Source: Sphingomonas daechungensis
GTDB lineage: Bacteria > Pseudomonadota > Alphaproteobacteria > Sphingomonadales > Sphingomonadaceae
Length of the DNA stretch: 64,000 nt
Assembly (NCBI RefSeq): GCF_014489495.1
Contig: NZ_CP060780.1
Coordinates: forward strand, 248,001-312,000
Reading direction: 5' to 3'
The translations under genes were made by a program, and so were the position numbers. Below are positions 1 through 15,826 of this stretch, one piece after another; the first letter of the stretch is position 1; each line of letters begins with the position of its first letter. Below the pieces are notes generated by a model. The model saw only the letters and a program-made list of their open reading frames with translations. It had not been told where the DNA came from and made no database searches.

Positions 1-1685
1 CTTCGCCAGCTCGACCGCCATCGGATTACGGTCGGTGCCGTGGATGCAACGGCTGACCACATCGCGCAGCGCGGCCTGCTTCTCCTCCTTGCCGGCATCG
101 GGATTGCGCCACAGCGCCACCCGGTCCGCCATCCGACGCGCGGCACCGAGTAGAAAGTGGCCGGAGCCGCAAGCCGGGTCGATCACACGCAGGTCGAGGA
201 CGGCGGCGGCTCTGTCCTGGCTCGTCTCGGCGTTCGCCTCGGCCTTCTCCAGCACCGGATCGAGCGCTGAACCGAGCAGTGTCTCCACGAGGCTATCGGG
301 TGTGTAGTAGCTGCCGCTGATCTTGCGCGCGTTGCCCTTGCCGGTGCCGAGCACGAACTCGCCGTTTGGAGCGAGGCTGGGCCGAATCTCGAGCAGGCTT
401 TCGTAAACGCTACCCAGCTCCTCTGTCTTCATGTCGCGCCAGTTGATGCGATGCAGGCCGCCGTCAACACGGATGAAGCCGAGGTTGAACAGCGCCTCGA
501 GGAAATGGCGATTGGAGATGCGCGCCTCGTTCAGAGTCGGCGTAGCGCCACGCGCGAACAGCCCACCGAGTGCGGGAGGCCGAGCGCCGCCTCCCCGTGC
601 TCCAAGGCGGCGAGCGCAATTTTCATGCCTTCCCAAGCGTCGTGGTGATGATCGCGCGCGACCCGGCGGCGCGATCGCTCACGCCAGAAGGTGAACGAGT
701 AGTTCCCCGCATAGAGCGCGCGCACTCGTTGCGACACGTTACGTGGATGCAGCAGGTCCCGATCCTCAGCCACCGCCAAGAAGATCAGCCGATACACGGT
801 GCGCAGCAACTCCTCGAACAGAGCCGTCAGCGAGAGCTCGTTCTCGACAATGCGTCGGCGAATGTCAGGATTGGCTTCGACCAAACCTTGGCCAAGTTGG
901 CGAAGGGCTTCCTCGACTCCCTCCCGCAGGCGTTCGCGAGCGGCGGTGCCCTGTTTCAGCCCTTCCTCGCGCCACTGTTCGAGCGCGCAGTCTGAGGCCG
1001 CAGCGCCCTCGGCTCCGAACCGCGTGGCGTGCGTAAGCAACCACCAAGTAGTGAAGTCCGCAAACATCTCGTCTCGGAACATTGCTGCGAGATCCGCCTC
1101 GATCCATGCGGGCCGGGTGAGGCTTGCGTTGTCGCGCATCAGCCGCACGCGATCGCCGGCGAAAACGAGACCCCAGTAGAATTCCGGCTTGGCGTTCAGC
1201 CAGTCTTGGAGGAGCACGGTGGGGCTGCGGCGAGCGCGTCCGCCTTCACCGTCTCCAAACTCGGGCTGCGATTTAGCGAAAGCGTCTGCGCCGGGAACAG
1301 GAGCCGCGACCACGACTGGCACGCGCCCACCCTTCGCTTCCCATGCAATGCGAAACCGCCGGCTTCCCTCGTGGTGTTCGTGCGGGCCCGTCAGATCTGT
1401 GAACCCGAAGCATTGGATCAGAAGGTCGCGGGCAAACGCGGCGGTTTGAGTTACTGTGGGGCTTTCGATCCGGTCGAATTCGGACCAGAGCGCATGGCCG
1501 ATGCTGTAATAGCGCGCGATCTCGTCGCGCAGCGTAGTGCCCTTGGGACAGGCGTAATCTGCAGCTCCTTTCGGGCCCATCTCAGCGGCAGCAATTTTGA
1601 CGATCTGCTCAGGAGCAATCAGGCCGCCTTCTACTACGACGGCTTCAAGCGCTAGGGCGCCCGTGCGCGAACCGATGCGGACCAT
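1..1685 (-). CDS. Eco57I/PglX-like N6-adenine DNA methyltransferase, 3' part missing (DrmMI-like)
   Basis: Third gene of the minus-strand helicase/methylase operon; the reading runs off the left edge, so the C-terminal half is not seen. The first ~375 residues are an N-terminal region typical of large Eco57I-type methylases. After one frame change near 562-565 (a G run one base short) the reading continues to the edge and contains methylase motif I, PACGSGHFLLGAARR, followed by HGTDRNPMAVELAK, the segment before the catalytic NPPY region, which lies outside the window. The ATG at 1685 overlaps the TGA of the SNF2 gene, so translation is probably coupled. Expected role is methylation of host DNA for self/non-self marking; a restriction activity in the missing part cannot be excluded. 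The assignment as an adenine methylase is firm; the DISARM link is inference. Confidence 0.85.
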
Positions 1686-4489
1686 CAGTTCGCCTCTGGA
1701 ACGAGCACGTAGAGGCCAATGACATCGGCCGGCAGGACTGGCGCGACCTCCGTCGTCGCACCCTCGCCGCGGGTAGCAGACTTCACCCTATCATGGTCCT
1801 CGCCGAGTTTCGCGGCGCGTTCATGCGCGTAGGAGGAGATCGCATCTTGGCATCCCGGTAAACGGTTGAGTGCTTCATTGACCTGCCTGGCGATAACCGG
1901 CGTAGCGACGTCGCCCGCGGCAGCCTGTTCGATCAAAGCCAGTGCCTCGGGACCAGTAGCAAGTGGGATGGTCTCTCCGCGCTCGAAGGCGACGGCGCTC
2001 GCTTCCTCCGCCAGCAGTGTCTTTCGCCCACTTGTCGTGAGAGTAAATCGCAGCCGCAGCAGAAGCACCGTGGTCAGCTTGTTGACTGCTGTGGAGCGCC
2101 ACGCACCAGCTCGCCCCATAGGCTTGGCGCCGGTCACCCCGTCAGGATCGAGCGCACCCTCGCTAACGCTTTCGGCCAGCATCGACACAAGCGGATGCGT
2201 GCGGCCAACGTGGGTCGTGTCCGGCAAGGGGTCATCGTGAAATGATACCAGCCGCGTGCCGGTCAGACCGCGCGCCGCGAGCCGTTCCTGCAATTGCTGG
2301 GGCAGCTGGTCATAATGCACACGCCATGCGCTGCCTGCCTTACCCTCAACGTCGCCCATCGGCACGTCGATGCGGGCCAGAGCTCGACGGGTGAAGCGCT
2401 CCACTTGCTCCGGGCCACCGAGGAGGTCGCGCATCTTGTGCCATTCCGGCAGGACTTCTTGCGGCTGCAGCGCGGTCTGCGCGTAGCGCGTGCGGCTCTT
2501 CTTGGCGTTTGCCTCCGCATCGCGCCATTCGGCATCGAGCTGCGCCTCCGCATTGCCGAAGTCGAATGTGCCTTGCGCGCGGGGGCGCTAGAGCGGAGCA
2601 GCATCGCTTGCATCAACGCGTTCGTAACGCTGGCGGAATCCTCGGGGATCGGCACGGTGACGCCCGTCTCCCTCGCAATTCGCTCGGCTTTCTTGGTGAT
2701 AACGTCGAGCACGGCACCGTCGATCATCGAGTTCTCGCCGAACATCATTACCGACCAGACCTCGCGCTCAGGCTGGCCGAAGCGGTCGACGCGCCCTTCT
2801 CGCTGCTGGTGACGGGTGGGATTCCAGTTAAGGTCGTAGTGGACCACGGCGTTGAACAGCGCCTGCAGGTTGATGCCTTCCGAAAGACAATCGGTGGCAA
2901 CGAGGATACGGTGCGGATAGTCGGCCAGAGCTTCTACCCGCACGCGGCGTTCGTCGGGCGTTAGTCGGCCGGTGACGATCTCTATTGTATGCTTCTTGAA
3001 TTGCTGTCGAAGTGCTTCGCCTACGGCCTCCGCGGTCGAGATAAAGCGACAGAAAACCACCGGCCTGGCGCCCTTAGCATCGAGGTCCTTGAGGTGCTGC
3101 ACGAGCTTGCGCAGTTTGGGATCATCCAGGGGGCGCGCGGCCAGCGCTTCGGCCTGATCGATCAGCCTTTGCAGCGCCGCGGTTTCCTCTGCTTTCGGTG
3201 CCGTCGCCGGCTCGACATCGCTTTCGATGAGCTGACCGTCGTCCTCGTCTAGGATGGCCGTTTCGAGCGCGGCCTCGTCCGCCATGCCAACAAGCCTATT
3301 TCTGAGCGCGCTGATCGCCGCCGCAGGCGAGGAGCCGACGCAGCGCATCAGTGCCAGCGTGCCCAGAACGCGAGCCGCCTCGCACGTTCCCCGTCCGAGC
3401 GGGTGGCAACGCCGACGCAGTAATCGAGCACGTCTTCTTGGAACGTTTGAGACTCGCCGGAGAGAACGTAGGAAGCTGCTGAGGCCGGGAGCTTCATCGG
3501 CTTGGCGAAAGCACGCTCGGCGCCCCAGTTGTCCATGATGTCGGGCCGGCGGCGCTGGACGAAGTGCTGAGCAAGGCGGCGGCGATAGCGCTCCAGAGCG
3601 TTCGCATCCGGCGTATCGGGTTCGCTCGTCAGGTCTACGTGCAGCAGGCTCAGCAGGCGCGCGTAGGCGTCCTGGTTCCCACTGTGGGGTGTTGCGGTCA
3701 GCAGCAGCATGTGCCGGCTCTCGTCGTCAGCGAGCCGCTGCAGCAGCGCGAACCGTTGTTGTGTTCCGCACTCGTTTCCGCCCACGCAGGTGTGCGCCTC
3801 GTCGACGATGACCATGCCGGGACAGACGTCAGCGAAGCTGTCGCGGCGGGTGTCGGCCTTTATGTAGTCCAGGCTGACGACCGTATAGGGGTAGGCGGAA
3901 AATATGCTCTCTGAGAGGGCAAGGCCGCGCTCCAGCCCACGGGCGCGCGAGGACGTGACCGCGACGGCATCGATGTCGAACTTTTCCGCCAGCTCCCTGA
4001 CCCACTGGTCAACCAAGTGCGGGGGCACAGCACGGTGAAGCGATCGACCTCGCCGCGGTCTATCATCTCCCGCACGATCATGCCGGCCTCGATCGTCTTG
4101 CCGATGCCGACATCGTCCGCGATCAGCAGCCGCTTCGTATCGAGGCGCAAAGCCATGAGCAGCGGCACGAGCTGATAGGCACGCGGCTCCACGCCCAAGT
4201 GCGCGGCGGAGCGGAATGGCCCCGCGCCGCGCCGGAGCGAGAGGCGCAACGCATCAGCGAGCAGGCGGGCAGCCTCCTGCGTGTCGAGGCTCTCCGCCGT
4301 TGGCGGAGCGAATGCCGTGCTGACGATCGGCTGGCGCTCGAGCAAGGGCGCGATGGTGATGGCGTCCTCTTCCGACCCTGAGAGCGGCCGCACCCGCAAC
4401 AGCCCGTCGCGCTCCTGCTTGTCGAGCACGATCCAGTCCCGGCCGCGCGCTTTGACGAGATCGCCGCTCTGCAATTGCGCGAGGATCAT
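1685..4489 (-). CDS. SNF2/HepA-type helicase (DrmD-like), ~935 aa, frameshifted
   Basis: Superfamily 2 SNF2-like ATPase. Visible motifs in order: Walker A LLIADDVGIGKTIEA (about residue 130), DEAH box VIVDEAHT, motif III LLLTATPHSGN, the helicase C-terminal part with VATDCLSEGINLQ and HQQREGRVDRFGQ (motifs V and VI). The C-terminal ~250 residues have no motif I recognise. The protein is read in three successive frame changes, near 4020-4025 (C run), about 3360 and about 2570, each consistent with one missing base. The ATG at 4489 overlaps the stop of the upstream helicase (ATGA), and its own stop overlaps the methylase start, so the three genes form one coupled operon. Proteins of this type occur as DrmD in class 1 DISARM and as DpdE in Dpd clusters. 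Confidence 0.88.
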
Positions 4490-7400
4490 GCATTCACTCC
4501 AAGCGCCAGTGCGAGTTCGGCAGGAATCGATTCTCCCGGCCTTTCGGGCAATTGAACGAGAACCCGCCCCATGTCCTCGCACCTCTGCGCTAAGCCGACT
4601 GGCGCTGACCCGACTGTCGCCATGACCATCAGATCCGGCCAGCACAGTGGATAGGTGCACCCTGCGATGGATTCAGTGGTGGGAGCCGGAGCGCCCCACT
4701 TCTCCAGCGCCTCCACCCAGCCCTCGCCACCCGCGGTTGCGCTTCGCCGCGCATCACCTCGCACCGCGTCAGACGATCTAGAAGCGATTGAACCTGGCCG
4801 TCGCTCCGCTCAATCAGCTCATGGTCGGGCTGGTTGTAGTAGGACAGTAGGCAGCGGTAGCAACCTTCCACGCAGGCATTGTCGCTGTCGTGCAGTGCGC
4901 CATCATCGTCGCGTTCGAGGTGAAGGAGATCAAGCGCCGTCGACGCCAACGTGCGCCAGCTGTCCGAGCCCGTCATCAGCCGCTTGAGCACGCCCGCGCC
5001 GCCCTCCGATGCCTCGTAAAGCAGGATCGCCTTGCGATTGTCCCGAGTAGGCAACGGCTCGCCAAGCAGTTCCCCGGTTTCCAGCACATGGACCGTCTCA
5101 ATGGCGCGAACGAAGGCGTGCTGCAGGGTCGCCATCTGCACAGGACCGAAGCCAAGAGAGGGGCTGAACTGCACCAATAGTGCGTTCTTGGTATCCTCGA
5201 CCATCGGCACGATGGACTGGCGGCGGGCGCTTTTCGGATCGGCGCCTTCCTCCTCGCCTGCCGCCTCGTTCTTCAGCCAGCGGCCGGTCAGGGTATCGAT
5301 GTCAAAGCCGGTAATCTCTTGCGCCTTTCGACGCCGCAGCCCGAGATTAGCGCGGGCCAGCACAGTCTGCGGCCCATAGCGGAGCGTAACGATGGCGCCT
5401 TCGCCATCCCCCAGAACTAGCTCCTTCTGTCCGCCATCGGGCCAAGTGAAGATGGTGCGCACATCGAAACCGCGCCGTTGCCGATCCTCGTCATTCGCAG
5501 TGATCCGTGCGCCGGGAACGGCCTCGACGTTCTCGATGCGGTAAAGCTTCGAGAGGCGCCCCTCGCTCGTCAGCGGCGAAGCGCACACGGCGCAGCGTTC
5601 CTGCGTCTCGCCATCGTGGCCCGCGCCGCATTCGGTGCAGCACGTCAACGTCCGGGTAGCGAGATTCCCTTCCTGGTCGCGCGTGCCGGCGGGGAGTTTG
5701 GCACGGTTGCAGCGGTAGGCCTTCCCCTCGTGATAAACGAGGCTGTTCGGTCCGAACTCCGCGATCGCGAGGAAGCGCGGCCGTTGTAGGACAGTCGAGC
5801 CTTTTTCGGCATCTACGAACGCATAGAGCGGCAATCGTGGGAAGTTGTAGCCGGGCAGGAATCCCTCCGTGGCCAGGTAGCGGTATGAGTAAAAATCGGA
5901 CCCGCTGCTGGCGCGACCGCTGTCTAGCAGTTCCAGCTGCTTGTTCGCCCGATGCTGGCGCGCTCCTGCCTCAGCCCGCTGCTCTTGGGAGAGACCCATC
6001 CGTCGGACAATCTCCTGAGCCGCCTCGAGCTCTTCCTGGGTCGATTCGCGAAGCTTCCTCCACCTGTCGAACGCTTCGTTGAATGCGCCTGCAGCTTCGA
6101 GCCAGAGGCGTTCCACGAACATCTCGACCGTGCCGAGACCTTCTGCAGCCAGAGCAAGGTCATCGACTGCTGCTCGAACCACCGCAATCGCACGCCTGCA
6201 CGCAGTCTCGTCGGCACTCGCCTCAGAAGCCGCGGCGGCAAGTTCGGGCGACAAGGGTAACCCTTCGATCAGTTCAAGATTGGCGGGAATGGCGGCTTCG
6301 AGCGGCTTGACGCACGCAGCCAGCCATTCTGCCTGAACGTGCGCCGTGAGAAGGTCTGGGTTGGCCAAGTCGATCGCCGGCGGACGAACGACACCGGCAA
6401 CTAGGTCACTGCGACGTTCGAAGTAGTATTGGTCGTGGGGCTCTGAGCGGCGCAATAGGTCACCACGAGGGCTGCCTGGCCGCTGCGCCCCGCACGACCG
6501 GCCCGCTGGACGTAGTTCGCCGGCGTAGGTGGAGCATTGCGCAAGTAGACGAAGTTCAATTGCGAGATGTCGACACCGAGTTCCATTGTAGGGGAGCAGA
6601 AAAGCACTGGCAGGAAGTCCTGCGGTTCCCCTCGTTGCGCATTTCGCCAACCTCCTTGGCGATCTGCGCGACGTCGGTGGGGCCGTAACGGAAGCGATTC
6701 TCGCGCCATTCCCGGACCTCGCTTTTGACCTGCGCTGTGTGCTCGCGCGCCTCAAAGCCGAACGGCAGCGCACCAGGATCGGCAAGCCGCATCGCGACAT
6801 CCGAATAAAGCTGGGAGAAGAAGGCGTTCTCCTGTCCCCGTTTCGTATCACCCGTTCCCTTGTGAAGCCTCACAGCATCCGGTGCGAGGCGCCATCCGGT
6901 AAGATCCCGCGTCGAAAATTTACGAGCGATGTAGTGGCTCTCTGCCGCGAGCAGCATCGCCGCTATCAACGCCTCGCGGTCTGTGACCGATAGGCTGCCC
7001 GCCAGCTTGCCGATGTCGCGACCCAGCACACTCCGGCCGGTCGCCCGGATAACGTCTCGTTCCCCTTCTGGCGCGCGCTTCCTATGACTAGGGTGCCTGC
7101 TCGCGAGAGGCTCTCTCGCTCTTCCTTGCCGATAGCCCAAGGATCTTTGAGTAAGTGCCGCGAGCGTTCGGCGACTTGGTCGAGATCCGTGGCGTCCAGG
7201 GCGTCGACGGCAACAGCAAGTCCCTGTCGCATCGCGTCAAACAGGCGCGTGAATACCTTTTTCCTAACGTCGATCGTCAATTCGGAAAGTAAGGCGAAGC
7301 CCCTGCGCTCTGTATCGCTAAGATCACCCTGTAACCCCGCTCCAGCGCAAGCATCCTCGTCAGCCGCAAGTGATGCGGTCGCAGGATAAGCGACACAGAT

Positions 7401-9610
7401 GAGCCCAAGTTGGTCGAGGTTGGGATTGGTGTAACGCCACCCGCGTCGCAGGTCGGTCCATAGCCGATGCGCCAATACCCGGTTCAACGTGCGTTTGGCG
7501 TCATCGAGTGCCGCAAAATCGCGTCGGCCGGTATCCTGCATCCACTCGGCCCGGCGCCGTTCGTTCTCCGGTTCGAAGCCAAGAGCCTTACGCAGGGCGT
7601 TACCGAACTCTTCGTGACTGAGCCCGTCCACGCCGGCTTCTTCCACCGCGCGCAGCATTGCGCCCCGTAGGAGTGTGACGAAAATGAAGTCGTTGAAGTG
7701 CCCAGCCTGGAGGGCCGCATCCTGCCGATTATCAGTGAACCCCAGCAGTTTTCGACGGTGTTCGTCCTCAGGCGCGCGGGCACGATCCATCCAGTCGAGC
7801 GCCGCGGTCGTAATCATCGTCGTGGCAGAGCTTCGGCCCTCGGACGAAAGCCCCGCGAGCTTGTTGATGTCTCGGGCCTGGGGGCTGGTTCGTAGCGACA
7901 CTGCGGGCAGAAACGGAACTTGCCAGGGAAGAACCATGAGCGGAGCCCGATGCCCTCGCCCTTTTCGCGACCGTCCCGTGCGAGATGCATCAGGCGGCCC
8001 TCGTGCTTTCCACGATGGCTATTCCTCAGACGAGGACCTGAACTACCCTCTTCAAGCCAAGCATCGGGATAGTCCTCGACGTTGCCGGCGAAGGCGAGAT
8101 CGCCTGCTGCGTCCGGCACGAGGAAGCCCGTCCAATTGCCGTCCAGGTCAGGTTCGTCTCGCGGAGTTGCGTCGATTGAGCGAGGAAGAACCTGCCCCTC
8201 GCTGTCAATCGACACACTGTGCACCTCCTGACCGCACTCGCGGCAGAAGAAAACAGGATAGAGTCGTGCATCCGGTGTATCACGATCAAACTTCTCGCCG
8301 GCAAGCGAGACAGTCCGCTTATCAACTGCCTCGAGTGTAGAGTGTGCATGGCCGGCGCCCGCAATGAAGCGGTGCAGCTTGAACGCCATGAACGCGGGAT
8401 CCGGCGCGTTCCTGTTGTCACTCATGATCACGAGTTGCCGCATGAGCGCTTCGCGGCATGTCTTCTCGTCCAGGCCGGAATGTGCCCCCAGGTCTCGCGC
8501 GGCCTGGGTCAAGGTCATTGGTGGCCTACGCCTAACTGTTTCGCCCAGATGGAGTCCTACCTGCTCCTCAACCCAAATCGCCAACGGATCGGTTTCAAAG
8601 TCGGCGGGGCCCGTATTTTGAGATGGCTCCACTATGGCCCGGCGCAGCGCGTGAAGGTATTCTGCTTCATTCGTTGGCTTGATGGTGCGACGCTGGAGCG
8701 TCTCGGTAATGACATCGTCGGGTAGGACTGCGCTCCCGAACAAGCGGGTGCCTACTTCCGCGACCGCAAGGCGTCCGGCATCCTCGTCGCCGGACGCCAT
8801 CGTCGCCGACGTGCCGACACACAGCATCTCAGGCGATCCCACGCGCTCGCGAACTCGCCGAACGAGCATCGCTACGTCAGCGCCTTGCCGGCCGCGGTAG
8901 GTATGCAGCTCGTCGAGCACGAGAAACTCTAGGCCACGCATGTTCTCGATGACGGCGCGGTCGAGATGGTCCTGCCGCGTCATCAGCAGTTCAAGCATCA
9001 TAAAATTTGTGAGGATAATGTCTGGCTTTTCGGCCGCCGCTGCCCGGCGCTCGCTGTCCTGTTCCTGCCCGGTGTAACGTCGGAATGTAGGCCGCAACTC
9101 GTCGGGCAAACCGCACCCGCCGATGAACTTTTCTAGTTCTTCTCGCTGGGAGTTCGCCAGCGCGTTCATGGGATAAATAATGACAGCACGTGTGCGTTGA
9201 GGCTCACCTGCCCGCCGTGCTTTTAGGATGCGGTCGATGATGGGCACGAAAAAGCACAGCGACTTACCCGATCCAGTGCCCGTCGTGACGATGTAGTTCT
9301 TACCTTGCTGCGCCTTCGAGAGCGCCTGCTCCTGGTGCCGGTGCAAACGAATGGGCTTGCGAGGCTGGCCCGCGGCAAAAACCTGCGGCAGACCGGCATC
9401 AATGAAACCGTTGGCGGCGAGCGCTTCCAGCGTCTCTTGGGCCGGTCGAAAATTCGGATTCAAGCCGATCAAGGGCTCAGGCCAGAAGGCGTTGCTCGCG
9501 TAGATCCGGTCGATCTTGGCCTTCAGATCCTGTGCTCGGATCGATGTGAATGAGCGCGTGAAGTCTTGATAGCGCGCGACCAGCTTCTCATCGAGATCGA
9601 AGACATTCAC
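4486..9610 (-). CDS. Giant DEAD-box helicase with C-terminal DUF1998 region (DrmA/DrmB- or DruE-like), ~1709 aa, frameshifted
   Basis: First gene of the putative defence operon. The N-terminal part has Walker [29 protein letters not shown], a DExH-type box [16 protein letters not shown] and [10 protein letters not shown]. The middle has cysteine pairs [10 protein letters not shown] and FCPQCRYEP; motifs V and VI follow as [10 protein letters not shown] and [12 protein letters not shown]. The C-terminal ~600 residues carry more zinc-like cysteines ([13 protein letters not shown]) and end in the DUF1998 signature [20 protein letters not shown]. Five frame changes (about 7881-7885, 7062-7065, 6626-6630, 6437-6440, 4726-4735) each fit one missing base, several in G/C runs. 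Start is GTG at 9610, overlapping the stop of a small upstream ORF. In DISARM the helicase and DUF1998 parts are separate proteins; in DruE they are fused. Confidence 0.85.
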
Positions 9611-9729
9611 GGCAGCTTTCCCACCAGCTCGAGTGCAGCCGAGAAGGAACGGCCCTCAAATTTGACCCGATTCTCAAGTGGCCGATTAGGCAGATGCTCA
9701 GCCGCGCGCACACCCTCGCCGCGCGGCAT
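9607..9729 (-). CDS. Possible 40-aa ORF coupled to the giant helicase gene
   Basis: An open frame from ATG at 9729 ends at a TGA (9607-9609) that overlaps the GTG start of the helicase gene, a spacing typical of genuine coupled genes. The predicted peptide starts MPRGEGVRAAEHLP and ends [11 protein letters not shown]. The frame is open for a few codons further upstream until a TAG, so this could also be the tail of a longer gene cut by another missing base. No domain recognised; tentative. Confidence 0.35.
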   Translation of the reverse strand: MPRGEGVRAAEHLPNRPLENRVKFEGRSFSAALELVGKLP

Positions 9730-12551: not shown

Positions 12552-12728
12552 ATGACAACGATAACCAAAGCGCCGGCGGTTGAGCTGGCACAAAAACTAC
12601 GATGCGCTGCTAGCCGGCGTTCGATGCTCCGTTTGACGCCCGAGCACGTCGCGATCCTCATGCAGCCGCAAATATACGGTCGAATAAGCGACCTCGAAGC
12701 AACGGAATTGAGGGCAGCATGTCTCTGA
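12552..12728 (+). CDS. Small protein at the head of the excisionase/integrase operon
   Basis: 58 residues from ATG at 12552, which follows the palindrome directly. Contains LTPEHVAILMQPQIYGRI; no domain recognised. Its end overlaps the start of the excisionase-like gene at 12719, which supports it as a real first gene of the operon. No clear Shine-Dalgarno is visible because the operator occupies that space. Confidence 0.5.
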   Translation: MTTITKAPAVELAQKLRCAASRRSMLRLTPEHVAILMQPQIYGRISDLEATELRAACL

Positions 12729-13075
12729 CCAGCAGGATAAGCCTCGCGGAAGCCAGCGATGAGAGCGGCTGCCACGCAGTCCAATCAGTCAGAGCCACAC
12801 GGCCCTACACGCCTGAGACCCTCTCGGAGCGGTGGAGCTGCAGCGCCGAGAAAGTGCGCCAAATGATCCACCGTGGCGAGCTTGCTGCCTTTCCGCTTGG
12901 CAAGCTCTTCCGCATCCCCGCCCTAGAAGTTGAGAGATACGAATGCGCCCACTTGCGTCCAGTGAAGAATATGAACTCGTTCCACACCGAGGCAAGCTCG
13001 CCGTTGCTATCGGAACGGGAAAGGCTCGCCGTCGGATCTCGACTGGCACGTCTGACCCTGGTCTCGCCCGAGTAG
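12719..13075 (+). CDS. Excisionase-like (HTH_17/MerR-type) DNA-binding protein
   Basis: 118 residues as read. The central part, YTPETLSERWSCSAEKV, MIHRGELAAFPLGKLF and IPALEVERYE, is the standard winged-helix excisionase form (about residues 29-75). Directly followed by the integrase, as usual in integrative elements. The last ~44 residues overlap the integrase start by 133 bp and look less protein-like, so the true end may be earlier and the overlap caused by a missing base. Confidence 0.75.
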   Translation: MSLTSRISLAEASDESGCHAVQSVRATRPYTPETLSERWSCSAEKVRQMIHRGELAAFPLGKLFRIPALEVERYECAHLRPVKNMNSFHTEASSPLLSERERLAVGSRLARLTLVSPE

Positions 13076-13929
13076 TCGCACGGCAGATCTGGGAGAAGCT
13101 TCACGCTCCAGCTTCCGAGCGTCTCGACGACCTTTGGAAGCACTATCTTGCCGACCGCCGCAAGGATCGGAAGGATGTGACCCGGCAGGAGAACGCTTGG
13201 AAGCACCTTCAGCCAGTATTTGGTCACTTCCTTGGCACCGACATCAGCAAGGACGATTGCCGCGCCTATGCAAAGTTGCGGCGGCGTTTTGGTGCAGCAC
13301 CAGGAACCGTGAGAACGGAACTCGAATATTTGCGGGCTTGTCTAAACCTTCGCTACGGTCGGGGTCACAATCGAGTATGGCTTCCGACTGGGAGCCCTCC
13401 TCGCGATCGATACCTGACGCGAGAAGAGTTCGATATGCTGCTGAGCAACGTCCAAACCGCGCATGTGCGACTGTTCATCATCCTAGCGATGACGACCGGC
13501 GCCCGCATGAGCGCAATTCTGGAGCTCCGGTGGGATCAGGTGGACTTCAAACACCGGACTGTAAACTTCAATTCCCCGGAGCATGAGCAAACTAACAAAA
13601 GACGTCCGGTGGTGCCTCTCAACCAACGGGCCCTTGCTGCTCTTGAGGACGCTGCACGCGGTGCTTTGACTGCTTTTGTGATCGAGTGGAGCGGGGAGCG
13701 CGTAAAGAGCATCAAGAAGGCCGTCAGAATGGCGGCGAAGCGTTCGGGCATTCCTTGCTCACCTCATGTCTTCCGCCACACCGCCGGTGTTTGGATGGCT
13801 CAGGCCGACGTGCCCATGCAGAAAATCTCACAGTTCTTGGGACACACCTCGACGCGTGTCACGGAGCGAACCTATGCGCGCTACTCGCCTTCATTCATGA
13901 AGGATGCCGCGGCAGCGCTGGAGTTTTGA
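12943..13929 (+). CDS. int: Tyrosine recombinase (phage-type integrase)
   Basis: 328 residues. Catalytic residues are visible: Arg in TGARMSAILELRW (about 188), HxxR in SPHVFRHTAGVWMA, His in FLGHTST and the nucleophile Tyr in TERTYARYSP near the C-terminus. An arm-type N-terminal segment (RGKLAVAIGTGKARRRIS) and a core-binding SAM-like region precede the catalytic domain. It lies about 1.8 kb from a tRNA-Val gene, the usual target class, and after an excisionase gene. The reading is intact, so it may be active. The actual attachment site is not shown. Confidence 0.93.
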   Translation: MRPLASSEEYELVPHRGKLAVAIGTGKARRRISTGTSDPGLARVVARQIWEKLHAPASERLDDLWKHYLADRRKDRKDVTRQENAWKHLQPVFGHFLGTDISKDDCRAYAKLRRRFGAAPGTVRTELEYLRACLNLRYGRGHNRVWLPTGSPPRDRYLTREEFDMLLSNVQTAHVRLFIILAMTTGARMSAILELRWDQVDFKHRTVNFNSPEHEQTNKRRPVVPLNQRALAALEDAARGALTAFVIEWSGERVKSIKKAVRMAAKRSGIPCSPHVFRHTAGVWMAQADVPMQKISQFLGHTSTRVTERTYARYSPSFMKDAAAALEF

Positions 13930-15655: not shown

Positions 15656-15751
15656 TGGCCGGCATCCTCATCTTTGGTGCAACTGCACCAGCCGAACCCT
15701 GCAGGCAGAGTTAGCGCTTTTGACTAAGCACCTGAGATCACGAGAGAAAAA

Positions 15752-15826
15752 TGGTGGGCGTGGCAAGGATTGAACTTGCGACCCCTGCGATGTCAACACA
15801 GTGCTCTACCACTGAGCTACACGCCC
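15752..15826 (-). tRNA. tRNA-Val (GAC)
   Basis: Cloverleaf on the minus strand: acceptor stem GGGCGTG / CACGCCC, D arm GCTC..GAGC, anticodon stem CTGTG / CGCAG with loop TTGACAT (anticodon GAC), T arm GCAAG-TTCAATC-CTTGC, discriminator A and an encoded CCA. The 3' end faces the island, the usual orientation for tRNA-targeting integrases. Confidence 0.96.

Follow-up and report, generated by a model that had tools for sequence, protein, structure and literature searches.

In a 64,000-nucleotide stretch of the Sphingomonas daechungensis genome (hereafter the window; the genome has 3.0 Mb in two contigs, and the window covers bases 248001-312000 of contig 1), we find three adjoining minus-strand genes that, by sequence, have the layout of an ARMADA type I defence operon: a YprA-like helicase with DUF1998, a RapA/SNF2 helicase and a PglX-like methylase. 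The operon is classified as a variant branch of ARMADA type I rather than a standard member because the catalytic stretch of the Vsr-type nuclease at the end of the helicase is missing; a gene for an HNH endonuclease lies downstream. The best explanation, which we consider probable, is that this branch has changed its nuclease, cutting having moved from a domain of the helicase to the separate HNH protein. We infer this shift from few independent events.

The genes concerned are the following; here and below, coordinates are window positions, negative ones lying left of the window edge, in a left flank designated L002.

9610-4495, minus strand: YprA-like DEAD helicase with fused DUF1998 (ArmC-like); profile match in six frame segments
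4734-4495, minus strand: decayed Vsr-type tail, the last helicase segment, in a separate frame after the DUF1998 cysteines
4489-1691, minus strand: RapA/SNF2 helicase (BrxHII-like, ArmA-like); four frame segments
1670 to -2293, minus strand: PglX/Eco57I-like adenine methylase (ArmB-like); three frame segments, with 1..1670 inside the window
about -2354 to -4296, minus strand: DUF262 (GmrSD_N) gene, downstream of the methylase and outside the window
-4361 to -5146 (within L002:14851-15699), minus strand: HNH endonuclease gene, unbroken, the proposed nuclease of the system

Gene extents were derived from profiles made of six or seven relatives, which cover all three operon genes nearly end to end; the last 2.3 kb of the methylase lie beyond the left window edge. 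Pfam identifies DEAD (E = 3e-27) and MZB/DUF1998 (E = 3e-9) on the helicase pieces, SNF2-rel_dom and Helicase_C on the SNF2 pieces, and N6_Mtase on the methylase piece within the window; the methylase carries DPACGSG and NPPW motifs. A preliminary description of this DNA had recognized a defence-type operon with these three genes, in the order helicase, SNF2 helicase, methylase, and with helicase and DUF1998 in one protein, all of which Pfam and the profiles of relatives confirm on the minus strand. The lengths it gave for the two helicases (about 1,709 and 935 amino acids) fit intact relatives, and the search for the same genes in other sphingomonads that it proposed finds them, for example as an unbroken three-gene operon in Sphingomonas sp. 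MM-1 (1,704, 933 and 1,355 amino acids). It had the helicase end in the DUF1998 cysteines; instead, the decayed tail at 4734-4495 follows in another frame. It also expected a nuclease, possibly of the phospholipase D (PLD) type, left of position 1: extended leftward, the methylase ends at about -2293 and is followed by the DUF262 gene and then by a nuclease gene, which encodes an HNH and not a PLD protein.

The name ARMADA goes back to the YprA helicases of these systems and to a pair of genes that class 1 DISARM also has (Bell et al., bioRxiv 2025, PMC12458937). According to that preprint, type I is defined by tree and operon, with the order YprA-like helicase with fused DUF1998, BrxHII-like helicase and PglX-like methylase; a predicted active C-terminal Vsr nuclease is a reported architecture of its helicases (PMC12458937). 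Reading across the frame changes, YprA helicase and DUF1998 form one protein in the window, and the order YprA helicase, BrxHII/RapA helicase, PglX-like methylase is found both there and in relatives. What differs from type I as published is the Vsr domain, whose catalytic stretch is missing in the window and its clade, and the separate HNH nuclease gene that follows. In type II, the same three protein kinds are arranged as SNF2 helicase, methylase, YprA helicase and then a RelE-GajB-like helicase, an order that the window does not have; E. coli ATCC 8739 (L142) shows the type II order with a UvrD-type helicase in the last place, and its YprA helicase is longer (2,113 amino acids). In the helicase tree, which was built without the preprint's own type I reference protein, 100 helicase rows, including the window and a Nostoc relative with reversed gene order (L135), stand apart from E. 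coli ArmC-II and DruE-III with support of 100, both outgroups being single long branches.

The preliminary description had read the operon as a DISARM relative in which DrmA and DrmB are fused, or as a new hybrid with Druantia-type architecture. The hybrid appearance arises because PADLOC labels form a patchwork: the MM-1 helicase matches DruE3 at 281 bits, DpdJ at 90 and DrmA at 48, the SNF2 protein matches DpdE at 578 bits and DrmD at 253, and the methylase matches DrmMI at 230 bits. This order of the three genes had already been described as ARMADA type I (PMC12458937), a defined type with the same layout, and the description itself had named such an outcome as one that would speak against it. 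The DrmD and DrmMI matches, which reflect an SNF2 helicase and an adenine methylase related to those of class 1 DISARM, favour a DISARM relative. The helicase does not: it lies nearer Druantia than DISARM by PADLOC scores, in MM-1 as given above and in the window piece at 151 bits for DruE3 vs. 17 for DrmA, and in place of separate DrmA and DrmB genes there is a one-piece helicase-DUF1998. No match to a PLD nuclease (DrmC) model was obtained among the seven other left-flank proteins scanned, which do not represent every frame of the flank. On the helicase scores and the published ARMADA I layout we rejected the fusion of DISARM genes, which we regard as very improbable. As to Druantia, DruE models are the nearest PADLOC models of the helicase, and the operon adds a RapA helicase and a methylase; no Druantia partner gene (DruH and others) matched among the proteins scanned, although no dedicated search was made. 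Dpd, which is marked by 7-deazaguanine synthesis genes, is more distant by the helicase (DpdJ vs. DruE3, above).

Separately, the DpdE model of PADLOC-DB 2.0.0 (PDLC02853) fits the MM-1 ARMADA I SNF2 protein over residues 13-932 of 933, so that mislabelling as Dpd is possible; more generally, under PADLOC 2.0.0 models such operons come out as a mixture of Druantia, Dpd and DISARM parts.

The state of the Vsr tail was compared across 107 loci and the window. The part of the sample drawn from genome contigs comprises the 80 relatives, out of 493, whose SNF2 proteins ranked nearest to that of MM-1, and dead-Vsr loci are therefore over-represented. From 115 loci examined (88 + 27), three without a helicase match (L077, L085, L091) were set aside, leaving 112; removing duplicates (L030, L046, L111) and loci with unread tails (L116, L118) and including the window gave a total of 108. 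Intact tails share an invariant D-G-P-H-H stretch and a later Asp (alignment of 14) and weakly match a solved endonuclease-like protein, 3hrl (E = 0.21). The D-G-P-H-H stretch is absent in the window and in many relatives though the tail still aligns; dead tails match intact ones at 99.7% (E = 1.3e-25), the aligned part including a shared stretch ahead of the tail. By this pattern, 78 of the 108 tails are decayed, including that of L131, which is ambiguous, and 30 are intact. Intact tails exist in alphaproteobacteria, in Roseomonas (L130) and in a locus from the window's own order (L117). A structure model of the tail was obtained with fair confidence (predicted local distance difference test, pLDDT, 83.7).

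The decay of the Vsr tail is associated with the presence of the HNH gene. A profile made from six HNH proteins, all from dead-Vsr loci, was run on the six frames of the 115 loci, and every hit of at least 50 bits lies downstream, on the same strand as the operon. Loci counted as judged (85 of 108) were those with an HNH hit and those in which a complete methylase is followed by at least 4.8 kb; the remaining 23, with less than 4.8 kb after the methylase or an incomplete methylase, and no HNH seen, were not judged. Among the 78 dead-Vsr loci, HNH is present in 66 and absent in 2, with 10 not judged, and among the 30 with intact Vsr, it is present in 4 and absent in 13, with 13 not judged. With a 2-kb limit instead, applied before L129 and the window were added, the counts are 64 with vs. 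3 without HNH for dead Vsr and 4 vs. 18 for intact Vsr. For the link between Vsr state and HNH, Fisher's test gives p = 4e-10, a value on which we place no weight since it takes no account of relatedness. The judged loci thus comprise 66 with dead Vsr and HNH, 13 with intact Vsr alone, 4 with both and 2 with neither, so that at least one of the two nucleases is present in 83 of 85. The two exceptions are a Streptomyces locus with an ambiguous tail and Chlorohelix, where McrBC-like genes, encoding EVE-domain and DUF2357 proteins, follow the methylase; DUF2357 we take to be McrC-like.

McrBC-type genes directly after the ARMADA I methylase were seen in Nocardioides (AAA ATPase, McrC) as well as in Chlorohelix (EVE, DUF2357; loci L132 and L134).

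The active site of the HNH protein is conserved and matches that of VcaM4I. The protein of locus L034 is predicted with high confidence (pLDDT 94.2), and positions 120-253 of the HNH profile align with the corresponding half of VcaM4I, an EVE-HNH endonuclease (PDB 6yex, PMC7897488), at E = 4e-35; the sequence match is limited to that HNH half. VcaM4I is also the best fold match of the L034 protein (E = 5.5e-8), but with a template modelling (TM) score of 0.42 and a root-mean-square deviation of 18. Residues S175, H176, N194, D203 and D207, invariant in 23 sequences, are spaced like the Ser, H224, N241, D250 and D254 of VcaM4I to within one residue, and H224A, D250A and D254A are reported to cripple that enzyme (PMC7897488).

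Helicase and HNH have been inherited together. A FastTree phylogeny of 102 helicases, from which the tails had been removed, unites the window and 67 other dead-Vsr rows in one branch (support 99); of these 68 rows, 63 have HNH and 5 were not judged; the window falls in a fully supported group of 8, and four of its five nearest rows are sphingomonad-order loci. An adjoining branch of 9 intact rows contains 4 with HNH, 4 without and 1 not judged, and in the HNH tree the proteins of the four intact-Vsr loci are set apart on a side of their own (support 98). The tail is also decayed in Hydrogenimonas, which lies outside the main dead-Vsr branch; it has an HNH gene of the same family (157 bits), located past the point at which its circular record begins. 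In a 38-row tree, the grouping of all dead rows into one clade is not rejected (p = 0.27 in the approximately unbiased test, p-AU). The HNH and helicase trees agree both over 65 loci (r = 0.81) and over the 61 dead-Vsr loci (r = 0.81), with 0 of 999 permutations as high in either set. These trees would fit an HNH gene that joined the operon before Vsr was lost.

The mechanism we propose leans on ARMADA type II, which, when tested against phages, gave direct protection without cell killing and needed all four of its genes (PMC12458937); the parts of that preprint consulted yielded no test of type I. By this analogy, phage DNA entering the cell would be the target of the two helicases, and defence would require the PglX-like methylase, probably for marking host DNA. 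In other type I lineages, the enzyme expected to cut is the Vsr nuclease fused to the helicase; here, where the fused Vsr lacks its catalytic stretch, the HNH protein encoded downstream in the operon would cut phage DNA in its place. The chances seem to us about even for a more general proposition, namely that Vsr in cis and HNH in trans are interchangeable nucleases, at least one of which is always retained by ARMADA I, and that HNH joined while Vsr worked, as in the four intact-Vsr loci with both, after which Vsr decayed across a large HNH-dependent clade.

Several observations weigh against a change of nuclease. Vsr loss is close to a single event, and the association with HNH therefore has little independent replication; the pattern defining an intact Vsr was chosen after the tails had been viewed; four intact-Vsr loci also carry HNH; and in Kozakia (dead Vsr, not judged) there is no HNH in the 3.8 kb past the methylase, where an IS21 element is found. 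Moreover, methylase and HNH are not always separated by the same kind of gene, which would be compatible with a shared island. Of 68 loci, 19 have the HNH start within 200 bp of the methylase end, and in 32 the distance is 1.5-2.2 kb; in 26 of these 32, and in 31 loci overall, one of them with intact Vsr, the intervening gene belongs to a single-linkage cluster of ATPases of about 660 amino acids, a tested member of which matches Lamassu LmuB. At the window locus and in L026, L029 and L065, the gene in between is of the DUF262 type. The HNH could, accordingly, be an independent defence gene that shares the island and acts outside the ARMADA I mechanism, alone or with a neighbour (LmuB-like ATPase, DUF262 or UvrD-like), and the 31 loci with an LmuB-like gene are those in which such a pair could operate by itself. 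Against this, HNH starts within 200 bp of the methylase in the 19 loci mentioned, follows the helicase tree and is missing in 13 of the 17 intact-Vsr loci that were judged; we consider an independent HNH unlikely. Another arrangement is a plain restriction-modification pair of HNH and methylase, with the helicases as a separate layer. The methylase does resemble type IIG and Eco57I enzymes, and PADLOC files related HNH proteins as type II restriction enzymes, but the presence of HNH correlates with whether the helicase tail is intact or decayed (in loci that were all found through helicases). We consider such a pair decidedly improbable. A nuclease change within ARMADA type I remains the explanation that we favour.

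As an observation in its own right, an SMC/LmuB-like ATPase recurs between methylase and HNH (e.g. L058:17171-19180), which raises the question of a Lamassu-like pair within ARMADA I.

Whether the window copy itself would function depends on how its frame changes are read. There are five in the helicase, three in the SNF2 gene and two in the methylase, ten in total, and one more in the DUF262 gene, whereas rpoB and a 783-amino-acid window gene of the same genome have none; both facts speak for a copy that has truly decayed and does nothing. However, all eleven changes step in one direction, as single missing bases would, adjoining segments lose at most 3 profile positions at the joins, and genome completeness is 86.6%, compared with 98-100% for 21 of the 23 single-contig genomes listed in the genus. 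C or G runs are at or near several of the seven joins inspected. The common direction suggests that the breaks are mostly assembly errors; on this ground we rejected true decay as the likeliest account and consider it rather improbable. The window copy may act in defence.

The operon is carried by an element of 29,018 bp bounded by a 54-bp repeat of tRNA-Val, with a guanine-plus-cytosine content of 0.595 vs. 0.640 and 0.633 outside. Its features are:

12943-13929, plus strand: tyrosine integrase, near the tRNA end of the element
15752-15826, minus strand: tRNA-Val gene, holding the right repeat copy
15746-15799, no strand assigned: 54-bp exact direct repeat, right copy, overlapping the 3' part of tRNA-Val
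-13272 to -13219 (L002:6728-6781), no strand assigned: 54-bp repeat, left copy, exact

Type II islands in tRNA genes are likewise described (PMC12458937). In at least 9 of 60 other genomes of the genus (G009, G016, G019, G021, G048, G049, G054, G059 and G060 among the matches listed), two copies of the repeat lie on the same strand no more than about 31 kb apart, and for this reason the tRNA-Val site appears to be a hotspot for islands. The element also has genes (L002:7058-9439 and 12621-13685) that encode a Ser/Thr kinase, a UvrD/GajB-like helicase piece and a second HNH protein, which resembles type IV methyl-directed restriction enzymes.

Among the relatives, the ARMADA I methylase is in pieces in Deinococcus radiodurans R1 pMP1 (L013), and an IS982 element lies within its 3' part in D. 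radiophilus (L139). Intact operons with dead Vsr are carried by Paracoccus denitrificans DSM 413 (L053) and by Methylorubrum extorquens AM1 (L140); in the latter, HNH and the end of the methylase overlap, and both its helicase and its HNH sit on long branches. The operon stretch is equal in coordinates, lengths and tails in Hyphomonas and Thauera metagenome assemblies (L045, L046), probably through a binning mix-up.

The operon layout itself is already published; the pattern of Vsr decay with HNH retention was not found in print. A link between HNH and ARMADA I did not appear in the titles and abstracts returned by full-text literature searches, and in the main text of PMC12458937 HNH occurs once, in a reference title, although the link may be listed in its supplements. 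Druantia III, which is also YprA-based, is proposed to co-opt the HNH protein ZorE of Zorya II (preprint PMC13192584, in which the passages with HNH, seen for 12 of 21 places, concern ZorE). For a large ARMADA I group whose only reported nuclease looks dead, the present analysis names a testable effector, and given the proposed co-option of ZorE by Druantia III, the combination of a YprA helicase and a separately encoded HNH nuclease may be a design that recurs.

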